Shown in pieces: positions 7,978-61,200 of a DNA stretch of 64,000 nucleotides. The stretch lies in contig NW_026570283.1 in assembly GCF_019649055.1 (NCBI RefSeq), positions 186,001 to 250,000 of the forward strand. Reading direction: 5' to 3'. The DNA comes from Paramacrobiotus metropolitanus. Taxonomy: Eukaryota > Tardigrada > Eutardigrada > Parachela > Macrobiotidae. How positions within the stretch are numbered: position 1 is the stretch's first letter; each line of letters starts with the position of its first letter. A program made the translations under genes and the position numbers. Under the pieces are notes generated by a model, which worked only from the letters and a program-made list of their open reading frames with translations, did not search any database and was not told where the DNA came from.

Positions 7978-8639
7978 TTAAGCTGTAAAACCCTTCTTGC
8001 CTGCAGCTTTCGGCTTAGGAGCAGCTGCAGCTTTCTTTTGGACAGGTTGGGCAGCGACGATCTGTTGTGCACCGACTCCAGGAGGAACGTAATCAGCCGG
8101 CGGAGTGTCGAAGAGGGGCTTGTCGGTGTACAGACGCGAGTTGGCAAAATCCTCCACTTGCGGTGACCTACACGTTGTCACTGGTGTTAACAATAACTTC
8201 AAATTACTGCGCTAGTTTGCATCGTTTCCTATCCCTACTCTAGCCGCACTGCGCTGTAATGTCTATAAGCGCTGTAACAGTAATCTCGGGCTTACTTGTC
8301 GCAGTCGACGTTGAAGAAGTAGTCGCAGATGAGTGTGATCTGGTTGAAGACAGTCATGTTGGTGCACAAGTAAGCAGTGTGGTTTCCGTTGACGTCGCAG
8401 CGGTGGAAAACTTGGCATTGGCTGGGAACATCAGCGTAAAAGCCGGGTTGTTTCTTGGAGGAGCAGTCAAAGTTCTGGGCGGAGTCAGGGATGGCGGCCA
8501 GAGTGGGATACTGGTTCTGGTCCTTGTTGGCCAGAATGGCCTGAACTTCCGCTGCATTCAGCGCCGGCTTCAACAGATCCCACACGTACTGCTGGCTGGC
8601 CACGAAACCAATCAGGCTGATCAACAAGATGACCTTCAT
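7978..8639 (-). CDS. Secreted CBM14 (peritrophin-A) chitin-binding protein
   Basis: Two exons (8639-8296 and 8167-7978, intron phase 2) encode 177 aa. The N-terminus MKVILLISLIGFVASQQ is a signal peptide; the inner ATG at 8639 was preferred over an in-frame ATG 33 nt upstream because it starts directly at the hydrophobic core. Residues about 50-115 carry a chitin-binding type 2 domain: the six cysteines fit the C-x-GFYAD-C-xxFxxC-x-C-TxFN-C-DxxxNxDC pattern of arthropod obstructor/Gasp proteins. The second exon is a low-complexity tail of basic, Ala/Pro-rich sequence ending GKKGFTA. Expected role: an extracellular cuticle or peritrophic matrix protein. A TATA box lies about 100 nt upstream. 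Confidence 0.85.
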
Positions 8640-8741
8640 TTTACTTTTCAACGAAGTCAACAGCAGTTGCAAGATCAGATTACTGGTGGAGAGTGCAAAA
8701 CGTTGGTAAAAGTTGACTTGCTCGATTACAAGGCTGGTTTG

Positions 8742-8750
8742 CTTTATATA
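8742..8750 (-). promoter_or_regulatory. TATA box of the CBM14 gene
   Basis: On the minus strand the sequence reads TATATAAAG, about 105 nt before the ATG at 8639, a good TATA-box match at a sensible distance for a short 5' UTR. Confidence 0.5.
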
Positions 8751-35219: not shown

Positions 35220-38200
35220 CTAAATACTAATTGAATTAGGCACAATTTCTGGGTCTAGCCAAGGATAGGGAAACTTGGTGGTAGACTGCGCATTCCTTTC
35301 TCGAATACTTTTGGAAATCACTATTAGTCTCTGACGTAGCTTTTTGGCGGCCTCAACGCTGATTGGGTCATACAAGTATTGCACTTCGAAATCTGTGAAC
35401 ACACAGATAATAACATCACCTCGTGCAGTCTGTACGAGTACACAGCGTCCATGTTCAGTGGACTTTTTACCGGCACAAACAAATAAGAAGTTGGAAAGCA
35501 GTACGTAGTACGTACCACCCAAAGAATTTGTTCCTTTGGAGCTCAACAGTCTAGTGACAACCATTGTATCCAGTGTAACGCTTTTAGGGGGTAGCTGTAG
35601 CAGTACATCGCGGTCCGTGTATCCTTCCTGTTAGTCCACCGGTATCTTGATTATGCGTCTTAGGCTCAATCAAAAACTGAGAAAATCTGACCTTTTGTGT
35701 AGGTATTTCTCCTGATAAAAATGCAGGATAGTTGGGTGGGAATGCATACCTGCAGTTCAAAAAGTAATGATCGAGCCTATCTTTAGCTCAAAGTTTATAC
35801 TACACACCAAAGCAAAAATTGTCAGATCCGTATAGCACTTTCGCAAATGCCGTAGGTTAGGGTTCGATTCCGAGCAACACTTCATTTTTGGTTAGAGTGA
35901 AAACAAAGCAACCTTACTCATCATATTGGTTAAAATTGGCTGCGGCGTGAGCCACACTACAGCTGCTGATAATGGCCGCTAAAGTGGTAATGATCTGCTC
36001 TGGTGAGGTGAAATTGCCATTTCCTGGGATACCCTATTTAACAAAACTGGAAAGTCATCTAACGCGTCCTCTATTAGTAGCACCTGTTTGATTTACCACA
36101 ATGCCCACTCCACCGACATCCTTGTCTTTTGCCAGTTCCGCTACCCACTGCTGCAGTTCCCAGTCATTAGCAATCTTCTCTGTAGTATCTGAAAATAAAA
36201 GCGTTGCATGCTCAGAGTCAAAGCTAAGTAACTCGTAACTCCAAGGTTTGTACGACCTGCACTTTTGACACTGTAATTACTGACCGTATACATCTTTGAC
36301 AATCACGGTAACATAATCCTGGATTGCCTCAAAAATGGCAATGGCATCATCGCGATACGGATAGTACGGCAATACTGTTTTGTCTATTACGCCACGGTGA
36401 GCGCAGTCCTTGGCGGGGATGGCATCCCGATCCAGGCGCCATTGTAAAACTCTAATAGTAAAAAATGTGCGGTGCAGTTGCACCATCCAACTATTTGCAG
36501 AATATTGGAGTACAATCAGATTAAAAGATCCCAGTCTATACCCGCGAGCAATAAGCTGAAACATGCCGGAACAACCGACAGTTGTGGTTTTGTCCACCCA
36601 TCCACCGGGATTGATTAATTTCTGCAGTCCGCGACTGTGATGATAATCGATTACGTTAAGATTAACTTATCACATGTTCACATGTACAGATATGAAAATA
36701 TTATAAGTGCATCAACAAAACTATCGGAAAAGATACGGCTTTTAACAAGGCACCGTACGTGTTAATGGCGAGAAGAAACAGAAAATGGGGAGCAAGTAGC
36801 TTGAAGATAGGATGTGATGGTGATAAATTGCGGTGGGAACACACAGCCACGCCCTCCATCATCAAATGCGTGAATCCTGATAAAACAACGTACATGCAGG
36901 CAGCAAGATCCAAATGTACCGTACAGATGTATGGTAAAAATAATAAATATGGAGAACTTGGTCTAGAGGCACACACGTAGTTGTGTTCTTCATTAGTACG
37001 TCCTAGAGTAGTGTTAACTCTCAGCCCCTTACCAAGATGTGTGCATGACTGGTGGAAGGTAGCGTCGGCATTGTTGTACCACATTTTGGCCAGAAGCCAT
37101 CTACTCAATAGAAAGCGAAGACGTGAGCACCTTGTTATTGAGCTCATCGAAGATTTGTCTGAATTTCTTACGCATAAGGATTATCCGTAGGATAAAATAC
37201 TGGATTTGTGGGAGACGGGTGCTGCTTCAATTGGATGGCCAAGGGGAGAAAGTTGCCCTTTCTATCCAAGTGAAACAACGCGATGGGTGCACATAACTGT
37301 AAATTAAAATGGAATTTCACAGTGAAGAGCGTAATATTATCCAAAAGTAATTCTAACCGGTCGATTATCTTTGCATGCGAGGTTATCAAGGATTTTCAGA
37401 TCCACAATAAAGATCCGGCTCTGTGCTACAGCTTCCGACACCGGCGTGCCATCCAGGATGGCCTCCGCTCGTTTCAAGTCCAGTGTCAGACTGTATAAAT
37501 TGACGTAAGCGCGGTTATCAACAGAAATTCGTGAGATCATAAAGAATTATGAAGATCTGTACTTGTTAGGAATCTGCTTGCACAAGCGAATCAGCACTGG
37601 ATTGCATCCTTGCAATCTTTGGGTACCAAACCATAGATCATTGTTCCAGTGCTTAGCTCCCAGTGGCATATCCATGCTGTATTTATACAGTCGGCGGAGA
37701 TCTTCCCATGATTCCCATTGTGCTAGTACACCACTGCTAACGGATATTAGTTTGCGGTCTTTGATAAACTTTATCTTGTTCGAGACGATGTCCCACTACA
37801 AAATTAATTTGTGGACATAAAATTCCGGAAACGACATACAGAGTACTCCAGCCAACAGACAATACATGAAAGAAAATAAATATTAAATTATGAGGTACAA
37901 CAAACAAATTAGCGAATACAAACAGTAATTGCTGAAAATATACAAACAGCTTCTAGCAATGAAATCAGTGCACCTTATAGGAGTCCGAGAAGGTCTCATC
38001 TTCTGGAAGACGCTCAACTTGTGCCGGCATACCGGGCGAGTTTATAGCATACCGGTACACAGATTTCTTGTGCTCCAGCTCCAAGCGGCGATTGCGAGGT
38101 TCTTCGTCGAACTGCGGGAGACAGGTATCGTAATGCTTCATTACATACCGGGTGTTGGCTTTGATCCATCTGTCACAAAATCAGTGGAGCGTTAACTGCG

Positions 38201-40245: not shown

Positions 40246-42707
40246 TCAGATGTTTGACATCTGACGACGTTTCAAGCTGCATGTATCCAGAAAACCACTG
40301 GACTGCCAGTAGCAGCCATTATAATCACACAAATACAGAAATCCATTATCGTACAACCGCAGTTCCGGATCGATGTAGTTGCCTCGCCAGGTCCTGGAGC
40401 TCCACATGGATTTTTTGTCCTGGTCATAAATGACTAAATTACCGTCGCTCTGCATGGCGACCCGTGCGATATTCCTTGCAGTTGACGCTTTAAAACTTTG
40501 CCGATAGTCACATTCGCGCCACACGACTAACTGTTTCGCTTTGTATACTTCTAAACGAAATCTGCCGTTCGGAGAGTAGCTTTCAGAATCTAAGTCCAAG
40601 TCTTCTCCCGCTTTAAGAACAACTGTAAGGGAAACGTAAATAATTTCAACCATAAGTTGGAAAGGTCAAAACGCGCGTAATAACCTTGGTACGGATATAT
40701 CTCAGCTGGGTGATAATCCGAAGTTTCGTTGCAGTTTGGATTGTGAAAACTAACGGACCGCCAATAACATCCTACGGCTTGATTGCACAAGTAAAAGTAT
40801 CCCGAATCCGACAAGAGCAGCTGTGAATCTCCGTATCCCCAGGTTTCCGTCGACCATAGTGAATCGCCTTTGGCGTTCTTGACTACGAAATGTCCGTCAT
40901 CGTACAGAATCGCGGTAACATTGGGCACGGTATAAGTATCCGTTGCGAATGCTACCGCTTCATCGCATTGGCGGTACAGTACCAGATTGCGGTCGGACTG
41001 AAAACTCAATCGGAATGATGATGATGGAGAATAAAAGTTGCCGCCGGGGTTCATCTGATATCCGCTCTTTAGGACGGCTGTATGGAGACAATCACATAAT
41101 AATCAACAGCAATATTGTGACTACAAATACGCAAAAGCAGATACTCGCGTACTACAGATACTACCGAGCACCTCCACAGCATTGCTTGAATAAGAGGATC
41201 TGGGAACTGCGCTATCTTTGAATTCGTTGACTCAGCATTTACCCACCTTGTGAACACATTGGATTATCTTGCATATGCTGCAGCCAATTGGTTGCGTCAA
41301 ATTCGGATTGCTTCATGCAGCCGTAGGCGATTTTGATTTTGATGGCATCCAGTGGGCTGAGATTCTTTCTTTGAGCGATGCACTGTGCGCTGCACTGTTT
41401 ACCCCGGCATTTCTTCTTGGGTATTATGGTAGGGATGCTGGTGTTTTTCGCAAAAGCAGTTATCGGGTAGTGCATGACTGACGAATAATCGTAAGGTAGC
41501 TTGAAGGTGTTGCCGGACTTAAACTCAAAATTGCTCTTGGAATCTGTTAAAGTACTGCGAATGAGACTACATACATGCCTATTAGTGATGCGGCATTGTA
41601 TCAATTTAGTAAAAGGGGTATTCATTTACAATGCATTTTCTGCTCGGAATGAATACTAGCGGGGATGTTAATGCTTCTAACAAATTTGAAGCTCACTTTC
41701 TTGCACGTTCTGAAAGTTGATGGTAACGTAATCATCGCGGTCCGATCGACTCATTTCGTGGAAGAAACCCAAAGCGTGCATGACCTCGTGTTGCACGTCG
41801 CCTATTTCGACGACACATGCCGGCGCCAGTTCGATCGGTTGCGGTTGCGGCCCGTAAGCATCTCGCCCAATGAATGACTGACAACTAAACGACAGAAAAA
41901 TGAGTTACGAAATGGAGATGCTTGGACTGGCGCTGCTAGCTGCATTGCACTCACGGTCAAATATGGAAGGACAGCACTTACGCGAAACGACGAACAAATC
42001 TGAGATAAACGCCTTCGTTAGTGCGTGCGTTCAGTGAATTTTACGCAGTTGGACGTTAGTCGCGACATCTCTTGTAAGGCTTTCCAAATAACTCCGATCT
42101 CTCGTGGAGCTAATAAAAGACAAAGATCAGTTTTGATGTCTGTTTAGTAGCTTACGGAGTGGTTAATGGTTAGCATGTTATACCAGGCACAAGTAAGTAA
42201 TAGCAACTGAGAGCGTACTGAATGTATCGCTAATAGCAAACGGAACAACTCCGTCGGGCCACCGCGATGATGCCGTGTCCATAAAATTAGCCGCTGCTTT
42301 ATCGGACTACGGTAAAGCAACATTTCCTTGGAATATTAGTTAAGTTTAACGTTTTGGGTATTGTGTCAGCAAATTACATCAGACAATCCACCATCCTTAT
42401 CAATCCCCGCTATGTCTCCTTCAAATAGTTTGTCACTAAAGCCCAATGAATTGGAATCCCTTCCTATGTATTTGTCCAGAATTTCTGGTGAGATGTACGA
42501 CTTCCAGTCTACGACGAAGCACCAGCATTATTGTATCTGTACAGCAACAGTGCAACGTGACCAGTATTGATCATTCCAACATCGTTCAAATTACTAATTT
42601 CTTTTGCTATCATAATTACCAGCTGGCAGTTGTGATGAACCTTCCGGTAGATATAACAAAAAAATTACAATCGTTATGCTCCATATTTGCATCCATCTCC
42701 CGTTCAT
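40246..42707 (-). pseudogene. Astacin/B-lectin gene A, frame-shifted copy
   Basis: First copy of a four-gene array. Exons 42707-42641, 42508-42378, 42306-42219, 42109-41982, 41884-41697, 41543-41247, 41077-40685 and 40622-40246, introns in phases 1,0,1,2,1,1,1 as in all copies. Domains: signal peptide (MNGRWMQIWSITIVIFLL), propeptide (DWKSYISPEILDKYIG), astacin catalytic domain with zinc site HEVMHALGFFHEMSR and Met-turn SVMHY, then two bulb-type lectin domains with motifs QSDRNLVLY and QSDGNLVIY. Exon 4 is 128 nt where the other three copies have exactly 124: the run CGCACGCAC near 42023-42031 holds a 4-bp tandem duplication that shifts the frame and gives a TAA at once, before the zinc site. 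Everything else is open, so the lesion is recent, polymorphic or a sequence error. Confidence 0.7.
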
Positions 42708-43305
42708 GGCAGTTACGCGCTCCATTTGTTAACACTAACCCGATCTAACTGAGATGTGGAAATCGTACAACAAGGTGTCACTGAAAAGCAGCTTCCCTTA
42801 AAGTTTGGAACTACGTCTGCATTTCATTGCCTTATCAGAATGCTTAGCGTCGTTTGTAGTACTATTGAAGCTGCGCGATAATAATTTACACGCTAGCGGC
42901 CCGAAGGAAAAACTAGGAACAATGGAAACTGGTTCACTGTGGAAGCTAGTGCATGTGATTCTTGCTAATGTTTGCTTCTGGCGTATTACGTAACCGTTAG
43001 CTGCTAGCGGAGGTGCTTGATGGCGTACAGAAGCTGCTACTCGGGCCACGAAGCAGTTACAGATTTATCCCACTGCGTCAAACCTGTACTCTGTATCAAA
43101 CGGGAATGGTTGACATGAGACGGTTTCACAACCCGTCATTCACGAAATTAGGAAATTCATCGTTTTACAACAAAAAGCAGTGATCTCACAAGTCAGTTGC
43201 CACCAGAGAAGGGCACACCGCTGACCATCAAATGACCAGTGACTATGCGGCGACGTACTTCAAGTACCAGTACAAAAAAGTACAAACTGCAGAGGATGCG
43301 ACCGG
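42708..43305. other. Intergenic, astacin A to B
   Basis: About 600 nt between tandem copies, presumably the promoter of gene A and the 3' flank of gene B. No TATA or other site can be named. Confidence 0.5.
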
Positions 43306-45947
43306 TTAGCAGTTATCAAGGAATCCACTAGACTGCCAGTAACATCCAGCATCGGAGCATAAATACAGAAAGCCATCATCATACAACCGCAACTGGGCAT
43401 TTCGGTACTGGTCGCCTGCTGCCGTTGTGCTCCATACCGGATCACCATCTTCATCGTACATGGCCAGTTTTCCATCGTATCCTAAGGTCAGTCGAAGAAT
43501 CGGGCCAGCTACCGGCCCGCTCTCATTCGGCTCCGTAAGTGTCGGAACCTGGAAGCCAAGACGGTGATCGCATTTCCTCCGAAGAAAGAACTTGGAAGCG
43601 GCGAAGCGCACGTAGAATCGTCTGTCCGGCGAATAGTAAGCCCGATTCTCCTTTACGTTCTGCCCAGCAGAAACAATGACTAAAAAACAGATATTCTTTA
43701 GTTTTTGGTTTTTCCAACGGTAGGAAATTGTCACAAAACTATACAGCGAACTGAACAACAAACCTTTGTGTTGATACGATTCAGAAGGAAAGAAATCCGG
43801 ATTCCCATTGCAGCTTCTAACATGGTACCCAATGGAGCGCCAATAGCAACCCGCTTTGTTACTGCACAGGTACAGATAACCTGAATCTGACAGGTACAAT
43901 TTGGATGCTGGGTACGCTTTGTCCTTGCCTTTCCCTCCCGACCATGCTGTCCATAAGTTTCTACCAGACTCGGCGTCGCGCACCTTTAGCTGACCTTCTT
44001 TGTCTAAGATCACTTGCACGGGGAAGCTTGCTAGTCCAAAAGTATCGGTAGCAAAGATGACCGCATTGTCGCATTTGCGATAAAGAACCACGTTGTTATC
44101 GGGCTGAAAAACGAGTATGTACTCGCCGGAAGGAGAGACTACGCTTGTGTTAAACTCCAGTTCCTCGTTCTGTTTTAAGACAGCTGCAGCGAGAAAATTT
44201 GCAACTTGATGAGTTTATAAAGCACATGTTAGTTGCTCACGTACTCACGTGTTGCGCAAACCGGGTGCGTTTCCATATATTTCTTCCAGTCCATTGTCGC
44301 CACATCCGCCTGGTCCATACACTTGTAAGCTATCTTTATTTTGATGATGTCCAATGCGCTTAAACCATGGCGTTGGCCCATACACTGCGGTTGTCCACCG
44401 CTAGCTTTGGGAATAATTGTCGGAAGGTTTGGATTCTTTGCAAAGGCGTTGAAGGGATAATGCATTATCGATGTGTAATCGTAGGGGAGACCGAAAGTGT
44501 TACCTTCGGAATTATTGAAGTTTGCGGTGTCTCCTAAAGAAGCCCTATTATGGAATAATCAAAAATGCTTAAGCAGATAGCATTCTGGCCAGTGGCGAAC
44601 TTGGTCCAGGGACCTCGCACCGAAGATATGTGCTCAAATGTTTGATGACCTCACGCCAAACACTGCGCAGTGTACAGAATCCCTTCTTTTAAAGGCTTCG
44701 CATCAAAGGGTGCCATGGCTCCTCGAGCGCACCCTGTAATTCACCACTGGCCGCGTCTTACCGACGGCTACATTGTCGTAGTTGATGGTGATGTAGGCAT
44801 CGCGGTCACTGCGACTCATCTCGTGATAGAAACCCAGGGCATGCATGACCTCGTGCTGGATGTCTCCGTATTCCCGGACGCATTCCGGCAGATACTGAAT
44901 AATTTGTTCTTTTCCCTGTTTTCCAATATACGATATACACCTGCGGCATTAGTTAGCAGGGTAAGTAGTTAAAGACAGCGTCGTGTAAGCGTGCAAGTAA
45001 GCGGCGAAATCTCCGGATGCAGTGTTACGTATTAATTCGCCCGCAAAGAAGGGCCTTGTACAATACATAGCACATGCCAATGTGTCGTAACTCGTAAATC
45101 TCCTTACTTAGCTTGCATCTGTTCGAGTTACGAAATCCAAACTACGCTACTCATGATCCGACCGACACTCCTGATCAGCATGCTAGCTATCCAATGCGAG
45201 ATCGCTTACTTCATGCCGCGCACGAATTTAATGTAGTCCTCTTGGTCGGTACGCTCCACGAATGTCACGCATTGTGATGTGGAATCCGACATCATCCGCA
45301 GAGCTCTGCGAATCCTAACTCGCTCTTTGGAATCTAGAAGCAATCTGGTTCACAGCGTGCAATGGTTTAATAGCGTAATTAACAGGTACGCTGGAGTGCG
45401 AATTCTTACTAAAAATGGGACTGACGAAGTAAGGAACGATACCGTCTGGCCAGACGTTTTCGTCTTTGTTGATGAAGTTAGCGAAGGTTTTCTCCTTCAA
45501 GACCAGAACGAAGTGGTCAATTTGTAGTTTCCAGACAACTTATGTAATAATTGACCGCAACTCAGCTGCTAATTCACCGATTTACTGCTAAGCAGATTTA
45601 CGACAGCAGACAAATTCAGCAGACTTCAGCACGGTTCAGCGACTTTTTACCGCAAAATTACCCTCGAATTCGTTGCTTCTGGATCAATCCCATCAATGTC
45701 ACCTTCGTAGTGCTGACTGCTGTATCCGACCGTTGTATTCTGACCTAAATACTTTTCCAGAATTTCCGGTGAGATGCGTGATTTCCAGTCTGAAAGGATA
45801 GCTTTTCTCTTCCATTGCATCAGTACACACGTTTAGTTACACGAGGTACTGACAATTTGCATGCGAACCTTCCGGAAGCTGCTGGATTGTCAGATCCAAA
45901 TACAACCACAAAAGTGCAGTTGCACGCAAGACCCCAGGATAACCCAT
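43306..45947 (-). CDS. Astacin metalloprotease with two B-lectin domains (gene B)
   Basis: Exons 45947-45869, 45789-45662, 45494-45410, 45333-45210, 44940-44762, 44533-44249, 44183-43764 and 43679-43306 join in frame to 557 aa. Signal peptide (MGYPGVLRATALLWLYL), propeptide (DWKSRISPEILEKYLG), then the catalytic domain from VWPDGIVPY. The zinc site is HEVMHALGFYHEMSR (three His, catalytic Glu) and the Met-turn SIMHY. Two C-terminal bulb-type lectin domains follow: the first has the mannose motif QxDxNxVxY (QPDNNVVLY); in the second it is degenerate (GYDGKLAMY). Predicted secreted zinc endopeptidase tethered to mannose-type glycans. The last intron (84 nt, weak GTTTGT donor) is stop-free and in frame; the sister genes support removing it. 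Confidence 0.85.
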
Positions 45948-46577
45948 GATGATGATGTACGCGTACGTACCAATGCGAGATGCTTCGGTTCCTGTCGAAA
46001 GCACATCCAGCAAACCACAAAGGATGCGAACCAATGCATACACTACATGCAGCATGTAGTGATCAGAATTTAACAGGCAGTTCCGCTTGTGGCGGAATAA
46101 TTTAAAAAGCAGCCGGTTATACTATCTTAGTTGTGCATGCCTCACAGTATCCTACTGTAGCATACGCTAGGAAACTCGTTTTATTATGACAATTTTTTAC
46201 AGCACTGACAAAACAAGAGACTTGTATATTTGTGTATTACCCAAACACGCACTTCTTTGTTTCACCGGTGTGACTTCGAAACAACGTTCAATGCATGCGA
46301 TATTGCAGATTACCCTATTCACATCAAACTTGCCCCCGGCTAACTAACACCGAAACACGAATAAATTGCAGATCTTCTGTATTGCGCCAGTACTAACAAT
46401 TTCTTCATGTCATACTGACGTGATGATACTGTATTATGTATTATTTGACTTGGCATGGTCTTTATTGGATTTTCTGAATTTGTTTTAGAAACCCGCTCGG
46501 AAAAAGGTTATAAAAACCACCGTTTACCTTAATTTGTGAATTAGAACTTAAGGTTGAACAGAAGAAGCTTTGTTCCG
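45948..46577. other. Intergenic, astacin B to C
   Basis: Spacer between tandem copies; no gene, repeat or named regulatory site. Confidence 0.5.
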
Positions 46578-49226
46578 CTATTTTGAGCAGCTGGTTAAGA
46601 ATCCACTGGACTGCCAGTAGCATCCCTGCGCATTACACAAGTAAAGGAATCCGTCATCGTATAATCGCAACTCTGGTTCAGCGTATTGTGGACCAAACGT
46701 TCCGGTGCTCCAAAAATCTGTGTCGGTATCATCGTACATCACTAAATTTCCGTCACGCTGCAACGTCAGCCGCGCAGCTTTTAAGGTGTTGGCACCGACC
46801 GCTGCGCTGAACCCAATGCCGTCATCGCAAGTTCGCTTAACAAAGAACTGGTTTGGTAACTGAAATCGGGCAAAAAACTGCCGATTTGGCGAGTACACTT
46901 TGTTGAAAGATAAATTCACATCGGCGGACGAAACAACTGTAAAAATTATGATAATCTCAGACAAGTTGGAGGCGTATCAAAGGGCAAGTTAATACTTGTA
47001 CAAAGCGTACAAAGTGTTAGTCGCACTACAGTAGCAATATCTTGTAAAATGAATTTTACATTTGCTTTATCATTCTTTAAAAATCACAGGCGCTCATAGA
47101 TACGAGTAACTTTAAATTTATTAACAGCCAGACAGTTCACTGCCGATAGAAATTATGATACGGTGATTTGGTTACCTGCATAAATATTAGCTGGAATATA
47201 ATCCGGCGCACCGTTGCAGTCGCCACTATGAAAACTGATCGATCTCCAATAGCATCCTGTTGCATTATTGCACAAAGTGAAGTAGCCAGAGTCCGATAAA
47301 TACAGCTTCGCATTGGGATACGTGGCAGTCTTCGACGTCCATGCCGACCACAACTCTTCATTTGAAAGCCCATCGATGACTTTCAGATTTCCGTTGTCAT
47401 CTAAATATGCTTGACCGCGACTGCCAGGAGCCGAAAAATAAGTGTCGGTCGCGGCAGCAAAAATGTCTATGCCATCACATTGCCGATACAGAACAAGATT
47501 GTTATCGCTCTGAAACACCAGTCTGAAGCTTTTTTGGGGAGAATAGAAGTTTTTGTCCACCGGCAACTGCTGCTTATTCAACTCCACTACAAAAAACTAC
47601 CGTGAATCAACATAATTTCAGGAATTACTACACACTTTAAAGAATTCTTACAAGGCGTGGAGCACACGGGGTTCGTAGCGAAGAACTGCTCCCAGTTCAT
47701 GTTGCTCAGTTTAGATTTGTTCATGCATCCATAGGCAATCCGGATTTTAATGGCATCCAGTGGGCTCAGGATTTTGCGCTGACCGATGCACACCTTTGAG
47801 CCCTTTTTCGGAATGATCGTCGGGAGTGATTTATTGATAGCAAAGGCGTTAATTTCGTAATGCATGATGGAGGCGTAATCGTAAGGGAGATCAAAGGTCT
47901 GTCCATGCGTTGTGACGAAATTACTCATTTGATCTAGCCATTAGAAAGTTAAAAAATTAGAAACAGGCAATCGCATAATGAGGATCTTTGCATAGTTGGC
48001 GAACTTATAAAGCGTTATGAAACAAAATTACACCTCTGGAGCTATAAACTTATAGTGGGTGCTCCAATTAATAGACATTTTTCGCAACTGCTCCACTTAA
48101 TGCTCCACTTTATGCTGATAGCCGAGAACATCTACCTGGTCGGATGTTTTTCACATTAATCGTTACGTATTGATCCCGATCGTCGCGGCTCATCTCGTGG
48201 TAGAATCCCAGAGAATGCATAATTTCATGTTGTATATCGCCCATTGAACGGACACAGCTTCCGAAAGACAAGCCAACTTGCTGACTGCCGCCCCGGTAAC
48301 CGACGAACGATTCACACCTAAAAATGAACTGTCGTCAGTCCGTGTTTTTGTTACCTGAATTTTCAGCTTTTGTTACGGTTTTTATTCTACACTTGCATAA
48401 AATGGGGGTTGAAATGCATGTAACTCTCTTCGTCACTGCGTCGCACGAATGTAATACAGTTCTGCGTGGCATTGGACATATACTGCAGAGCATTTCGGAT
48501 GAGGGTAGCTTGCTTGTCGCCTGCGTTGCAGTGCATAACGTCAACTGGTTTCATGTTGAAAAACTACAGATACGTGTGTTGTGAGTCGTGCTTACTGAAA
48601 TCTCGCGATATATAATAGGGGATCTTCCGAGGCCACACGGGAGCATCGAAGCCAATAAAGTTGGCTTCCGTATTTGTTGGCTGCAATACAACTGCATACA
48701 AATTCGCTTTTCGGTAAAATTCTTTATTCTGAATCATAATTATGTATACGTACGGCTATCGAACGATACTCGATGGCTACAAAACAATTTTTGTGCAGCT
48801 GCTTTAATATTTAAATGCAGTACGCCGGGTTACCGTACTACTTAATACTAGTGTAATAGTGCGATATGACTGTGTGATATGTGCGGAACAATTGTCTGTG
48901 ATTCTTACATCAAGGACCACGGTTCGGTCGAACCCATCGATATCGCCCTCTATGCAGGTTTCGCAGGTTTCGTTAATATTTTGATCCTTTGGTCCTACGG
49001 AGGCTATTTCATCCAAGATTTCCGGCGCGATAAGGGATCTCCAGTCTAGAATGTACTGATCTAAACCTAAACTCCTCGACTTCGTGTGATGCATTCGCCT
49101 TAATCGAAATTTGCACCATATTAATACTTGACATGTGATACCTTCTGGTAATTGCGATCTGACACACAGCAGTCTGGTACTAGTTATCACAACAAAACCA
49201 GCAAATGTCCAAACCGGCGTATGCAT
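46578..49226 (-). CDS. Astacin metalloprotease with two B-lectin domains (gene C)
   Basis: Exons 49226-49142, 49045-48909, 48680-48596, 48520-48397, 48317-48136, 47933-47652, 47586-47176 and 46936-46578 give 554 aa with the array's shared intron phases. Signal peptide (MHTPVWTFAGFVVITST), propeptide (DWRSLIAPEILDEI ... CIEGDIDGFD), catalytic domain from VWPRKIPYY. Zinc ligands are His174, His178 and His184 in HEIMHSLGFYHEMSR; the Met-turn is SIMHY. Both lectin domains keep QxDxNxVxY (QSDNNLVLY, QRDGNLVMY) and end in cysteine-bracketed GCYWRS/GCYWQS blocks. Exon 4 ends at a GC donor (GCAAGT), the only choice that keeps phase. Predicted secreted metalloprotease with two mannose-binding sites; substrate unknown. 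This is one of two intact copies. Confidence 0.85.
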
Positions 49227-49722
49227 ATCGTTGGTTCAAAGATTTTTCATACGATATTGTGGCAGAAATCAGTCCAGATGACGAACCCAGTAGCATAAAG
49301 CGAATTTGCTGGCAACACGCTTACAATTAGGCTAATCTCGTCAAAATTTTTACGTTATTTATGAAGCATGGCAGTTGCCGTAAGGTATCACAAATGGCAA
49401 TAACAAGGCCGCAATCATGGATACATACCTACATGTATATATCTGTATTGATTGACAGGGCTTTGGGGAATTTAAGATCCAAGCTCAAGAAATGGTCTTT
49501 GTCGATTTAACATTAAGTTTTTGCAAGACAAATATAAATGTGGCAGTTGCATAGAATTAATTTTGTTCTTTGCGTGTTCTGCGTTTGACATAGCTATAGA
49601 AGTACCGAAGAAATAACACGGAGCTGCAGGAAATATACACTGTTTGTTTTGCCTATATAGAAGTATACAAGCTTTATTTTGCTTTTTGGTTCGCAAGTCA
49701 AGTTGCTTCTATATATATACTG
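49227..49722. other. Intergenic, astacin C to D
   Basis: Spacer between tandem copies. The minus-strand frame at 49472-49696 has no support. Confidence 0.5.
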
Positions 49723-52700
49723 TTATTTTTGACAGTCGGTAAGGAACCCACTGGACTGCCAGTAGCACGCGTTTGTACTGCATAAATACAAAAATCCGTC
49801 ATCGTACAACCGGAGCTCGGGCTCATTAAACTGCGCTCCGTATGTTCCGGTACTCCACAAATCCAGGTCGTTCCTGTCGTACATTACCAAATTCCCGTCA
49901 CGCTGTAAGGACAAGCGTGCTGCTTGGTTGAACTGGCTGGCTCGTGTTTCCATTCGTGCTCTAAATCCAACACCACGATCACAAGTGCGCTGGACGTAGA
50001 ATGCATTGGGCAGGCGGAACCGGGCGTAAAATTGCCGACTGGGTGAGAAGATCTTCTTGGAGGTTACATCATCCCCAGCCCGCGCGACAACTGTAAGGTA
50101 TACCCACGTTTATTACGAACGGCTGCTTCAACACTTGCTTATAAATCATTGTTTTTTGACGACAAAAGTTAATTGTAAAATAGGTGACAGTTAATAATTT
50201 TTACATATAACGCGTTAGCCAGTAAGATGTACGGTACGTTAATGTTGAACAGTACAGTTTGAAAGAGTTCTAGTTCTGCATCTGTTTGTTTGGACTACTA
50301 ACTTACCTCGGTAATTACTTGATGGAAGATAATCCGACCTACCGTTGCATTCTGTGTTATGATAGCTGGCTGATCGCCAGTAGCAGCCAACATCTCTACT
50401 GCACAAATAAAAGTACCCGGAATCGGACAAGTACAGCTTGGCATCATGATATTTGACGGTCTGTGAACTCCATGCTGACCACAGTATTTCCCCGGAATAG
50501 CTATCAACTGTTCTCAAGTTCCCGTCACTGTCTATAAGAACATCAACACCGGCCGCATAAGAAGTGTCCGTCGCAAAGATATCTTTTCCGTCACACTCTC
50601 GATACAGGACAATGTTGTTATCGGACTGCAAGACCAATCGGAAAGATTTTTGTGGCGAATAGAAGCTTTTCCCGGTCGGTATCTGTTGCCCCTCAAAGTT
50701 CACTGCAAAAGGTCACGGCAGTTGGTTATTGCGCCGATTCGTTTGTTACAACTAGAAACCTCTCACGGGGCACTGCGCACACTGGATTTGCCGCCAAAAA
50801 CTGCTCCCAGTTTGTATTGCGGACATGCGACACATTCAGACATTTGTAGGCAATGCGGATCTTAATGGCATCCAACGGACTCATGACCTTCCGTTGTCCC
50901 ATACACACTTGAGCGCCCTTCTTAGGAATAATGGTTGGAATGGATTTGTTGAGCGCAAAAGCATTGATCTCATAATGCATGATAGAGGAATAGTCGTAGG
51001 GCAAGGAGAATGTCTGACCATGCCGCGTCAGGAAATTGAATTTTTGGTCTAAGAAAGTCACAATTAAGGGTTATCTTTCTCTGCTGATCTGTATAACTTC
51101 AGACAACTTTACAACAACACCAGCTTAAAGCACCTGGAACGACATTATCCATGTTGATGGTGACATAATTTTCGCGATCTTCGCGGCTCATCTCGTGGAA
51201 GAATCCCAGCGCGTGCATGACCTCGTGCTGTACATCGCCGATATGCCGCACACAGTTTGAAAAACTCAACCGTATCTCCTGTTTGTCATCACCTTGACGT
51301 CCGATGAAAGAGCCGCAGCTGCCATCGAAATGTATGGTTGTAACTAAAGTTACTCATAATCATTAAGATAGATGAATGAATATTACTTAATTACCCGTAG
51401 GCGCTGACAAATTTCACGTAGCTCGTCTCCTGCTTCCGTGGGATAAATGTTATGCAGTTGAGCGTTGCGTTGGACATAGCTTCTAAGGCTCTTTCTATCA
51501 TCCGTCTATTCTTTTGTTCTACGTCACACACACAGAGCGAACCGTTTGAATCATTTGTTCCAATAATACGTAGGGTAATTCACTTTGGAGTGTTTCAGGT
51601 TGCTTTCTAATTTCTTACCAAACTCTTTACTAATGGAAAAGGGAACTATTCCGTGAGGCCAGAGAGCGGTTTCATTGCCGATGAAACTTGCTCCCTTGTC
51701 TTCTGTCGGTAGCTAGAACACTCAACACGTAATAACATTTGCTTCAGTTCTTTAATTTGAGTTCACTATATCCAACAGTTTCACTAATGCTTCAAAAGGA
51801 GCGGATTCCAAAGTTGGCAGTAAAAAAGTAGTTCCCTTTAAATTTCGATTTCATAGTTACGGATTTTTCGTCCGCCTCGATTGTTGGAAGTTGGATTCAA
51901 GATCGAAAAACAAGCTTTCACATAGAAAATTCAATCAGGTAATATGAACAGAACAATCAGCGTACGAGGCGTGTGTCCCTTACTTAGATAGAGCACATTT
52001 ACCTTACCATACTTAGATAACTGTGCCCGTGTTGTGCACTCAATGTGCACATCTGTCAACCACCCATAGATGGCAACGCTAGGGCAAATTTGAAAAATGT
52101 GTTGATTCAGCCGTTGATAATTTCAGGTGCTCACATCTCGTGAATGAGGGAACAAAACTGTTCAAGCAATATCTCAAAGATGCAGAAAAATTCACAGATT
52201 TTTGATACCAAGTAATATGGGATTTAGAGCAACTGAAACAAGTTGTAGCCTTTTGAGTTTCTCGTAGACACACTATAGGACCTCTTCGTGGACCCCTTCA
52301 ACGTAATACTCACTATGCTAAGTCTATGGGAAACAGAAATGGCTCTAATTTATTTCATCCGCTCTAAATCCTGACTTACTTGGTATCAGAAAACTTATGA
52401 ATTTTTCCACATCTTTTGAGATATTGCATGAACAGTTTTGTTCCCACATTCACGAGATGTGAGCAATTGAAGTTATCAACGGCTGATTCAACAGATTTTT
52501 CAAATTCTCCCTGACGTTGCCATCTCTGGGTGGTTGACAGCGCTGCACAACACGGGCACAGTTATCTTAGTATGGTAAGGTAAATGTGCTCTATCTAAGC
52601 AAGGGACACACGCCTCGTACAGTAATCAGCGTACAATCAACAGCACAAAGGAGCTTACAATAAATGTACGGAAAACTAGCCGCACAGGACACGAACGACT

Positions 52701-53099
52701 TGGGTAGACGTACAGACTGTACGTACAATGTTACGATAATTAGTACGCTTAATTAGCGTATTGTGCGCCAAAGTGCAAAGTATACGTATTGTATATAAAT
52801 TATGATGCGTTAGCATGCCGTTTGTTGCAGACTCACGTCTTCCAAAACTGCCCGATCAAAGCCGTCCATATCGCCTTCTATGCAACCCGCATAGTTCTCG
52901 CTGGTGTTGTGAATGCTGGGAGCTGCCGCCGTCAACACGTCCATAATCTCAGGCGCAATCAAGGACTTCCATCCTGGAATTCTCACACCAGCATTGCATT
53001 GGCTTTGCACTTTCCAAAAGCTAACATACCTTCTGGAAGCTGAGCTTTGATGCCGAGGAAGAGGGCGTTGGCCAGAATGATCTGTATTATTGGGCGCAT
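49723..53099 (-). pseudogene. Astacin/B-lectin gene D, likely frame-shifted copy
   Basis: Exons 53099-53030, 52973-52837, 51710-51619, 51518-51395, 51318-51134, 51048-50767, 50702-50307 and 50090-49723. Signal peptide (MRPIIQIILANALFLGIKA), propeptide (GWKSLIAPEIMDVL), zinc site HEVMHALGFFHEMSR, Met-turn SIMHY, lectin motifs QSDNNIVLY and QRDGNLVMY. Exon 3 is broken: its start reads ASFIGNETA and its end LWPHGIVPF, both homologous to the sister genes, but in different frames, as after loss of 2 bp from a CT repeat at about 51649-51656. An acceptor 8-10 nt further upstream would give an open frame with an unrelated stretch before LWP, so a functional product is not excluded. Intron 2 is 1.1 kb (under 0.25 kb in genes B and C) because of a 657-bp palindromic element. 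Confidence 0.7.
51963..52619. mobile_element. 657-bp palindromic foldback element in astacin D intron
   Basis: Two arms of roughly 280 nt are inverted copies of each other (for example GTGTGTCCCTTRCTTAGATAG at the left and its complement at the right) around a short centre near 52290. Ends are TA-CGAGGCGTGTGTCC ... GGACACACGCCTCG-TA. The TA flanks and the CGAGG start are shared with the MITE pair at 26.4-26.9 kb, suggesting mobilisation by the same kind of transposase. A 10-11 nt direct repeat (AATCAGCGTAC) lies just outside both ends. Interior has no transposase. Confidence 0.75.
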
Positions 53100-58299: not shown

Positions 58300-61200
58300 C
58301 TAAATAACAACAGAAGGCGCCAGAACGTAGATAAAATCGGAGCCATTCATCCGGATGTGACCGGGTGGATTGGACGCCACATAGCGTTTCCCGCGGTGGG
58401 ACTTTTTCACCTTCTTGGTTTCGGTGTCTCGCTCTAACAGGTACAATCCTATGCAGATCATGTCGTAATGGACCAGAGCATAGGACCAGAGATCCGCGTA
58501 TGTGAGACCCTTAAGAAAACAGCAGTTATGCAATCTTTGTTACACATCAGGGTAAATACTGTTTATGAGTCGAAAGCGATTAAAACTTCTATGTTAAAAT
58601 TGTGGAATGCAAATGCTACGGACGCAGAAATGGTATATGACCAAGTACAGAGTACATAGATTCGAATTCCAAGTACATTAAAATGATATAACATGGAGTT
58701 CCCAGACTAATTACCTGAAAAAACAACATATTTGTATGACTTACCTCGAGCTTAACAAACTGTTCGGACTGCATGCTCATCAGTTTAAGCTGCACTTTTA
58801 ACCGTCGGGAACTGCGCGGCGGTGCCACTAGCATGGGTGCTTCGTTGAGGTCATCATCCTCAAGAACGGAGCTTCCCACGAGACCCACGCCCTCGGCAAA
58901 GGCCCGTTCAAATTCGCTTGACTCTCCGCCGTAGATAAGTTGTGTAAATGACATTGCTAGAGCCGGATTGTAAAACATCTACGAACAAAACTGTTGGTTA
59001 GTTGATCGTAAAACAATAGCCCCAAAACAAAAGACAAAACGACTGCCTGTACACACCGACGTCATCATCGAATCCAGCGCTGTCGACACCACCACCGAAC
59101 CGGACATGTGGGCAAAAGTGTAGCGAAAGTCCAGATAGTTGCGGTCTTGTGACAGAAATCGTACACTTTTTTCATGCTCTGCAATACATTCCAAAATCCT
59201 TGCGTACATAAGTAATGAAAATGAGCATATTTGTACAACTGCTACAACGGATTTTATCGCTGCTGTAAGGCGAGCTACCGTACCTAACGAAGAAATTATG
59301 GGAACCTGCAGACCGGTTTCATAAGGAAACACCTGACCGTTTCGGTCTATTTCACCACCGGTGTGTACGCGGTCACGGAATTCCATGGATTTTACGTTGA
59401 GCGTGGTGACAATAACATCCCGATCGGCCAAGACGCGGTCTTCCAGGGCGTCACTAGTAACACGCTGTCCCGCGCCCGACACCATGACACACATGGCGCA
59501 GTAGTCGATGTAGCAGGCACGCAGGGCGGCAGTTACAGCGGGATTGCCCTAATTGCAAAATCAATTGTCTTATTGACGTACTGGCATCAATCGACTGACA
59601 CCTACATTAACAAGGCACAGTTTGGGCGTGGTGCAAATAAAATTCCATTCAGGACGGATAATTTCCGGATCGCAGAGGATAACGATTTCTTTTAGTTCCT
59701 CGTAGGGAAGTACGCTGGAGCGCAGTGGTAATATGATATCGTGAATGCCGGCCACGTTGGATGGACCCGACGCCAGGATGCAGATGAGAATGTGATCGGA
59801 AAATTCCCGGCAAGCCGCTTGTTCCAGATTCTGTAAGGATTTCACCCAACAGCTAAGTTATGCGCACCACCTGTACGCGTTCTACACTCAACTGTCGCAA
59901 CTTACTATGAGGACGTCGCTGATGAGCTGCGGATGGCACCACCAGAACATGCCGGTAGAGTCGAACTGCGGCCGATTCAAGCGCTGAATGGCATGCTCCG
60001 CGGTGCCTGGCAGCTCCATCTTGGACACATCTAACGACATACTGCGCTTGACGTGCTGCAGCACTTGTTCACTCAGTGACTTGAGAGGCACGTTTGGAAG
60101 GCTGGGCTGTTGGGTCTGTTCCAGGCTCTTGTAGCTATCGCGCCGGTCGGCGAAGAAGCGTTTGTTCTGCGACAACGAGATGGCGCTGCGCGTCAGTTCC
60201 GGTGTGCCCAGCACGGATCGCTGCACCATGGGTTGTTCGGAGTAGGAAGAGTTACGGTGGTCAGGGTCCGAGGGGCCTTTAATGGATAGCCGCGGTACTA
60301 CTTCCACTGCTTGAGAAATGCTCACCGGCTCTGTGTTACAAGAAACAGAAAAATAATACCCCGATATGCCGAGCAGCAGAACTAAGCTAGGTATTTGAGC
60401 TGGCTAAACTGAACCCAGTTGTATTATGGCAAAAACAAAAGAGAGTGCAGATTGGTATCATCAGCAGTCTTAAGCGCTTTTATTACAGTGTCATATGCGG
60501 AGCAAGTAGTGACCTTTCCAGCGTTTCGGAAGATGCAAGTCGAAATGTACTTATTTTTTACTATGCGTCAACGATCAAAGCCGGAAGCGTTAGTCAAACA
60601 TTACAAGATGACGTAACACTGACGCCCAACTGGCATTTGCTATGACCGACTTACGTTTACGTTTCCAGCGTTTGCAGTGACATTTGCGTATCCGCTCCGG
60701 ATTGACATCCGCATGACACTTGTCACAATAAATCGAAACGCTACAAAATCAAAATATGTATCAACAATCTTACGGCCGCAGCACGGGAAGACCTGTCAAT
60801 TAGATTTGTTGAAAACGCCTCTCGTGTATAATCACCGTGCAGCCTCCCGTGACGTGCGGCAGATCACTTGGCCCCAGCAGCGTTCGTTAATTATGAATGA
60901 CGGACCGGGATTGAAGAGGAAGCTTGTCTGCTCACCGGATTCCTCGAATGTCTCGTACACGCCGACAAGGAGGACTTTTAGCTTCCGATAACATGTTCTA
61001 GATTCGAAAAACCTTAAGCTTTTGAAAACGTCCACCGTGTTAGTGCAAAAAGATACTGCACATACGCTGCGCCTTCTTTGAAGCTCATTCCCCAAAACGA
61101 AGAACTGAACGGTATGCTAAAGGGCTTCATTTTCCGCCCATAGGCATACAAATCCGGGACACATTCAGATAAAGTTTCTTGCGGTGTGCGTGCCGCAATC

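Follow-up and report, generated by a model that had tools for sequence, protein, structure and literature searches.

A 64,000-nucleotide (nt) stretch of the genome of the tardigrade Paramacrobiotus metropolitanus (contig NW_026570283.1 of assembly GCF_019649055.1, forward-strand positions 186,001 to 250,000; hereafter the window, numbered from its first letter) carries a tandem array of four genes, A to D, that join an astacin metalloprotease to two bulb-type lectin (B-lectin) domains. Judged from its sequence, this architecture is real and multicopy, and constitutes a variant of the astacin family that is undescribed in the literature searched. A preliminary description of the window knew of no standard astacin subfamily built in this way, and the literature search likewise turned up no description of an astacin joined to a bulb-type lectin; automatic domain databases may list the architecture. 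In the portions of the literature available, the phrase 'B-lectin domain' alongside astacin refers to the ricin-B-lectin domains of a sperm serine protease, co-mentions of astacin and Galanthus nivalis come from a nematode ShK paper and a review of insecticidal proteases, and the bulb-lectin papers listed in the searches, in the parts accessible, make no mention of tardigrades. The main texts of PMC11191345, PMC5531438, PMC6652013 and PMC8277472 contain no word starting with 'lectin'. PMC5531438 counts 53 clusters of peptidases among the protein families that occur only in tardigrades and have a congruent domain architecture, and the astacin-lectin fusion could be among the families in the supplement of that paper.

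Structure of the array

The exons of the four genes, rebuilt by hand from the minus strand, checked by script and translated, give the following models.

Gene A, 49723..53099, minus strand: 551 amino acids; signal peptide, propeptide, astacin domain and two B-lectin domains; exons 53099-53030, 52973-52837, 51712-51619, 51518-51395, 51318-51134, 51048-50767, 50702-50307, 50090-49723
Gene B, 46578..49226, minus strand: 556 amino acids; architecture as gene A; exons 49226-49142, 49045-48909, 48680-48596, 48520-48391, 48317-48136, 47933-47652, 47586-47176, 46936-46578
Gene C, 43306..45947, minus strand: 557 amino acids; architecture as gene A; exons 45947-45869, 45789-45662, 45494-45410, 45333-45210, 44940-44762, 44533-44249, 44183-43764, 43679-43306
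Gene D, 40246..42725, minus strand: eight-exon layout as in A-C, with a frameshift caused by a four-base tandem duplication in exon 4; exons 42725-42620, 42508-42378, 42306-42219, 42109-41982, 41884-41697, 41543-41247, 41077-40685, 40622-40246

In genes A, B and C the reading frame runs uninterrupted from start to stop codon across eight exons, beginning with ATG, and the exons are separated by GT..AG introns of phases 1,0,1,2,1,1,1. Gene D matches them in splice positions, GT..AG introns and order, and its exon 4, of 128 nt as against 124 in A and C and 130 in B, contains a four-base tandem duplication within 42032-42018, with the result that plain translation runs into a TAA in that exon. 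The preliminary description had read four head-to-tail minus-strand genes with eight exons and these intron phases, each encoding a secreted astacin with a tail of two B-lectin domains; the fusion and its several copies stand, as does the layout of all four genes, but gene D has lost its frame and only three of the four genes (A, B and C) yield an intact protein. Because exons 5-8 of gene D are still open for 417 codons despite the upstream frameshift, the lesion is possibly recent, allelic or an assembly error, and since the Paramacrobiotus sp. TYO assembly was built from combined nanopore and Illumina reads (PMC8277472, in the part accessible), error, allele and young pseudogene are all possible. 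The array itself is not recent, since the proteins of A-D are only 47-59% identical to one another.

The intron that joins the protease exons to the lectin exons is 64, 65, 65 and 169 nt long in A, B, C and D, respectively, and 69, 269 and 215 nt long in three paralogues on other contigs, and it has phase 1 in all seven modelled genes (in D, relative to the downstream frame). With joining introns so short and so uniform in phase, the protease and lectin exons look like parts of one gene. The suspicion that neighbouring protease and lectin genes were misjoined, or that the DNA came from a contaminating rotifer or alga, is extremely improbable. Separate lectin genes are present elsewhere in the genome, and the species is fed on rotifers and algae (PMC8277472, same part), but a misjoining is disfavoured by the length and phase of the introns and by the recurrence of the same joint in 7/7 modelled genes on three contigs (C63, which holds the array, C16 and C85), and a foreign origin by a foldback element that the window has in common with contig C25.

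This element, of ~660 bases (51962-52620), lies within the 1124-nt intron 2 of gene A and has inverted arms of 77 nt (97% complementary) and 146 nt (86%), with others nested. Since near-full-length copies occur on other contigs at 86-99% identity, it represents a mobile family resembling miniature inverted-repeat transposable elements, and its insertion in gene A is young. The copy on C25 is 99% identical over ~608 bases, and C25 also carries one of the 15 genome matches (up to 71% identity) to a consensus of the CAHS proteins, which are not known outside tardigrades; the window is thus part of one genome with a tardigrade-marked contig. Guanine plus cytosine make up 41.7% of the window and 42.8% of the first 36 loci examined. 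Other open reading frames of the window (8295-8750, 36704-37180, 1215-2165 and 58982-59548) give matches to CBM_14 chitin binding and Lipoxygenase above the cut-off, and to 7tm_6 and Slo-like RCK just below it.

Protease and lectin domains

In the spliced proteins of genes A, B and C, Astacin and B_lectin both score above the Pfam cut-off in one frame, in line with the astacin-lectin fusion of the preliminary description. PF01400 (Astacin) is matched over nearly its full length with expectation values (E) of 2.9e-52, 3.4e-49 and 1e-51 in A, B and C (167-178 bits; cut-off 22.5), and PF01453 (B_lectin) with E of 9.7e-11, 2.1e-10 and 1.8e-8 (42.5, 41.5 and 35.2 bits; cut-off 32.4), gene C having just one B_lectin stretch above the cut-off on its own. 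PF01400 is above its curated cut-off in all five proteins scanned, namely A, B, C and two of the paralogues, C16 and C85a (the scan left out D and the loci C85b and C85c, which are introduced below). The motifs and domains lie in these exons.

Gene A exon 5, 51134..51318, minus strand: zinc-binding motif HEVMHALGFFHEMSR
Gene A exon 6, 50767..51048, minus strand: Met-turn SIMHY, end of the astacin domain, linker to NPVC
Gene A exon 7, 50307..50702, minus strand: B-lectin domain 1; QSDNNIVLY; phase 1 at both ends
Gene A exon 8, 49723..50090, minus strand: B-lectin domain 2; QRDGNLVMY
Gene B exon 7, 47176..47586, minus strand: B-lectin domain 1; QSDNNLVLY
Gene B exon 8, 46578..46936, minus strand: B-lectin domain 2; QRDGNLVMY; modelled with a mean predicted local distance difference test score (pLDDT) of 89.9
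Gene C exon 7, 43764..44183, minus strand: B-lectin domain 1; QPDNNVVLY
Gene C exon 8, 43306..43679, minus strand: B-lectin domain 2; canonical motif lost (GYDGKLAMY)
Gene D exon 7, 40685..41077, minus strand: B-lectin domain 1; QSDRNLVLY
Gene D exon 8, 40246..40622, minus strand: B-lectin domain 2; QSDGNLVIY

The zinc motif HExxHxxGFxHEMSR and the Met-turn, both noted from the outset, are present in all four genes of the array, the latter in the form SxMHY (in D, downstream of the frameshift). Across all eight lectin-tailed loci of the genome, the general zinc motif HExxHxxGxxHExxR is found in 8/8 (D being read past its frameshift) and SxMHY in 7/8, C16 having SVLHY, with Leu for Met, in a gene model that is otherwise unbroken. 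The propeptide has a motif around E-[G/E/D]-D, which we take to be the 'aspartate switch' of astacins; its Asp is kept at all eight loci, and GD at six. Given the zinc motif, the likely inhibitory propeptide Asp and a signal peptide (judged by eye in the window genes), the natural reading is that the array proteins are secreted zymogens, zinc endoproteases of family M12A. With the other members of that family (hatching enzymes, meprins, BMP1/tolloid and crayfish astacin) they have in common the signal peptide, the propeptide, HExxHxxGxxHExxR and SxMHY; whereas the C-terminal partners known from other astacins include EGF, CUB, MAM, ShK and TSP1 domains, those of the tardigrade genes are B-lectin domains in tandem. 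The nearest solved proteases are 3lqb, presumably a hatching enzyme, and 3vtg, a hatching enzyme by its title, followed by tolloid-like 1, BMP1, meprin and astacin. The tunicate astacins called Tast are also encoded by contiguous genes and also have an extra domain, but they are type II membrane proteins with TSP1 repeats, in place of which the tardigrade genes have lectins (PMC9265791, in the part accessible).

The lectin tails have in common with the monocot mannose-binding GNA-like PF01453 lectins and the fungal lectin MOL a beta-prism II fold and the motif QxDxNxVxY, and differ from the monocot lectins in having conserved cysteines (YLC..GCYW), an attached protease, and at most one repeat per domain in place of three. 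Classical bulb lectins have three QxDxNxVxY motifs in each domain. The preliminary description had called the motif mostly intact, which is true in the sense that seven of the eight array domains contain it in strict form; there is, however, only one per domain, and none in domain 2 of gene C, so that each array protein has at most two canonical sugar sites. The best PDB sequence matches of the tail are two-domain bacterial lectins, SCAfet, gastrodianin and snowdrop-type agglutinins. SCAfet and the LlpA/pyocin L-type bacteriocins, which are among these matches, have the same tandem of two B-lectin domains, but they have it without a protease and in a plant or bacterial context, so that the likeness is one of fold and not of membership. 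For domain 2 of gene B, the model reaches template modelling (TM) scores of 0.78 to the mannose-binding mushroom lectin 4tkc and 0.68-0.74 to gastrodianins, and a second structural alignment of domain 1 of gene A is led by bulb-type lectin folds (Z up to 10.1 over 73 residues). The models thus predict that the tail domains adopt the beta-prism II fold, with support in domain 1 mainly over residues 1-78.

Relatives elsewhere in the genome and the direction of evolution

The PF01400 profile gives at least 164 exon-level astacin matches genome-wide, so that the family is large for an animal with a genome of 170 Mb. When the query ends in the post-astacin linker there are 150 matches, of which eight have E <=1e-22 and reach residue 84-86 of 86, the next (C215) having E 1.3e-18 and ending at residue 66. 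The linker up to NPVC marks the lectin-tailed genes, these being the eight strong matches; the two weaker matches that also enter it were rejected as fused copies, one (C11:694k) having no lectin in view and the other (C444:6380) an internal stop and no lectin match on its contig. Likewise rejected was C53:417800-425500, where a stop in the Met-turn region interrupts an astacin that is of the lectin-free type and lacks the linker, and where the lectin pieces ~1 kb further on are broken.

The eight loci lie on three contigs: A-D on C63, one at C16:1.37 Mb, and three on C85, at 290 kb (C85a), 300 kb (C85b) and 389 kb (C85c). Six are unbroken as modelled, one is frameshifted (D), and one is split and damaged (C85c). 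Spliced alignment of C16, C85a and C85b gives introns 2-7 with phases 0,1,2,1,1,1 and no stops, exon 1 having been modelled in the window genes only and exon 2 of C85b in part, since the sequence examined starts there. At C85c (C85:388300-398200), no lectin 2 was detected beside a damaged lectin 1; intron 5 is 7.5 kb long and contains a peptide judged by eye to be retroelement-like. In the one measurable pair, C85a and C85b, nonsynonymous divergence (dN) is 0.128 against a synonymous divergence (dS) of 1.01 over 492 codons, which indicates that the protein is under purifying selection.

A search of the genome with the lectin tail gives 46 matches at E up to 1, including a two-exon lectin pair without a protease at no fewer than five further loci (C299, C77, C213, C53 and C109), for which the 2.1-5.4 kb examined upstream of the pair showed no astacin exon. 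At C213, a signal-peptide-like exon separates the pair from an astacin of the lectin-free type that lies ~5 kb upstream and is encoded on the same strand; such an exon, recognised by eye, lies upstream of four of the five pairs (C77 being outside that comparison). The C53 and C109 pairs contain in-frame stops, and the other three are stop-free. When all 12 pairs (seven fused and five stand-alone) are compared, the strict QxDxNxVxY is present in domain 1 of 12/12 and in domain 2 of 6/12, or 18 of the 24 domains. Partial or broken lectin pieces occur at C85:321 kb, C109:284 kb, C213:3.3 kb and C53:418-421 kb, and C43 and C49 hold tandem lectins that are more distantly related. C18 (822500-829000), and possibly C82, has lectin exons with several canonical motifs (DGNLVLY-type repeats at C18), and in this respect the C18 lectins resemble classical bulb lectins more than the tails of the proteases do.

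In the fused genes, phase-1 introns flank the lectin 1 exon on both sides, and in the stand-alone genes C299, C53 and C109 this exon is likewise entered through a phase-1 intron (by eye), a symmetry that fits exon shuffling. The domain tree of the 12 pairs, in which each domain roots the other, has one branch (100/100) that splits all first domains from all second domains; therefore, the pair arose before fused and stand-alone genes parted. The best tree places the stand-alone copies among the fused ones, which form no clade for either domain, and this suggests that the protease was lost in the stand-alone lineages. A single fused clade is not rejected by the approximately unbiased test (p-AU 0.169 for domain 1 and 0.157 for domain 2), and a tree of the tandem rooted on C43 and C49 gives no order of fused and stand-alone genes. 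On the protease side, where the comparison was with 18 lectin-free astacins of well over 100 astacin matches, the fused astacins make up one side of a weakly supported branch (64/71), and only if C85c is counted as fused; in the first astacin tree, with exons 3-5 of C85c not labelled fused, the fusion label needs two changes. The first of these trees leaves out L013; the second leaves out L009 for its long branch and L025 for its poor model, and merges L030 with L013. Because they are partial or broken, the lectin pieces at C85:321 kb, C109:284 kb and C85c, like the second copies at C213:3.3 kb and C53:418-421 kb, enter no tree. One fusion event is the simplest reading of these relationships, not a proven one. 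More speculatively, and with only a small chance of being right as a whole, an exon-shuffled lectin pair may have joined an astacin, spread to eight loci and later shed the protease, giving rise to secreted lectins with the same glycan address that might guide the lectin-tailed proteases or compete with them, in a glycan-addressed protease system of tardigrades. A bacterial origin of the lectin pair is weakly disfavoured: a scan of prokaryote genomes with two peptide patterns, a weak test, gave 58 pattern matches and no relative.

Possible roles of the lectin-tailed astacins

The function that we propose, with moderate confidence, is that of a secreted M12A zymogen aimed at its substrates by its lectins: the astacin would be held inactive by its own propeptide, the C-terminal beta-prism II pair would hold the active protease on mannose-type glycans, and the docked protease would cut glycoproteins on a coated surface, whether of prey, of an algal or microbial wall, or of the animal's own matrix. 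Digestion of food is weakly favoured as the likeliest setting because Paramacrobiotus sp. TYO is fed on Chlorella and rotifers (PMC8277472, in the part accessible). The preliminary description had similarly supposed a secreted protease aimed at mannose-rich glycans in moulting, digestion or defence, and perhaps specific to its lineage; the animal sequence compared here is that of this one genome.

Several results weigh against this proposal. B_lectin falls under the Pfam cut-off in C16 (25.0 bits) and C85a (20.8 bits), so that PF01453 is above it in three of the five fused proteins scanned (A, B and C), as well as in both stand-alone pairs scanned. Only two Foldseek rows for domain 2 have E <0.001, both of them the 4tkc lectin, and the next rows are mostly bulb-type lectins. 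The model of gene A domain 1 is of moderate quality (pLDDT 69.9), and its top Foldseek match, a mycobacterial B-lectin (E 7.3e-7), has a TM score of only 0.42-0.50; the lectin match is mainly to model residues 1-78, leaving the last third without structural confirmation. Evidence of constraint comes from one pair because dS is saturated, and not computable, in the other five of the six pairs tried. In none of the domains compared does the strict motif occur more than once, and half of the pairs lack it in domain 2; domains with a single motif may have lost or changed their affinity or specificity.

This scarcity of motifs would also be expected if the lectin domains no longer bound sugar and were structural modules that bind proteins, form oligomers or restrain the protease, and sweet proteins of the same fold (neoculin) and plant receptors are among the structural matches. 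That alternative is nevertheless rather unlikely, given that domain 1 keeps the strict motif in every one of the 12 pairs, which are otherwise widely different, and that three of the five protease-less pairs are stop-free, suggesting that the pair has a use of its own.

If the lectins do bind mannose-type glycans, as proposed, the surface could be that of a microbe, with the lectins recognising mannans and the protease damaging or processing surface proteins. Such immune effectors might well take the form of a multicopy family as divergent as A-D, with stand-alone lectins beside it, and fish lily-type lectins are reported to be immune (accessible part of PMC9549603); the same pattern fits digestion too, however, and we hold the immune role to be possible but doubtful. 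Remodelling of the animal's own glycoprotein matrices, by enzymes of hatching, moulting or fertilisation, is improbable, though it accords with the hatching enzymes found as the best solved relatives, with the action of astacins of other animals on egg coats (PMC9265791, in part) and with metalloproteinase families that change expression in tardigrade anhydrobiosis, the present genes not being named there (PMC5531438, in part). Closeness to hatching enzymes is, however, a property of the catalytic domain and no predictor of role, and in the main text of a paper on the P. metropolitanus sex transcriptome the words astacin, lectin and protease have 0 occurrences (PMC11191345).

The targeting of astacins is largely set by the domains fused behind the catalytic domain, and a bulb-type lectin tail, of a kind familiar mainly from plants, bacteria and fungi, would aim an animal protease directly at mannose-type glycans. 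As the lectin pair exists both with and without the protease in one genome, with matching phases where examined, the gain and loss of a protease may be traceable within a single lineage. If the predicted binding is true, the lectin-tailed astacins would add a testable class of enzymes to tardigrade feeding or defence.

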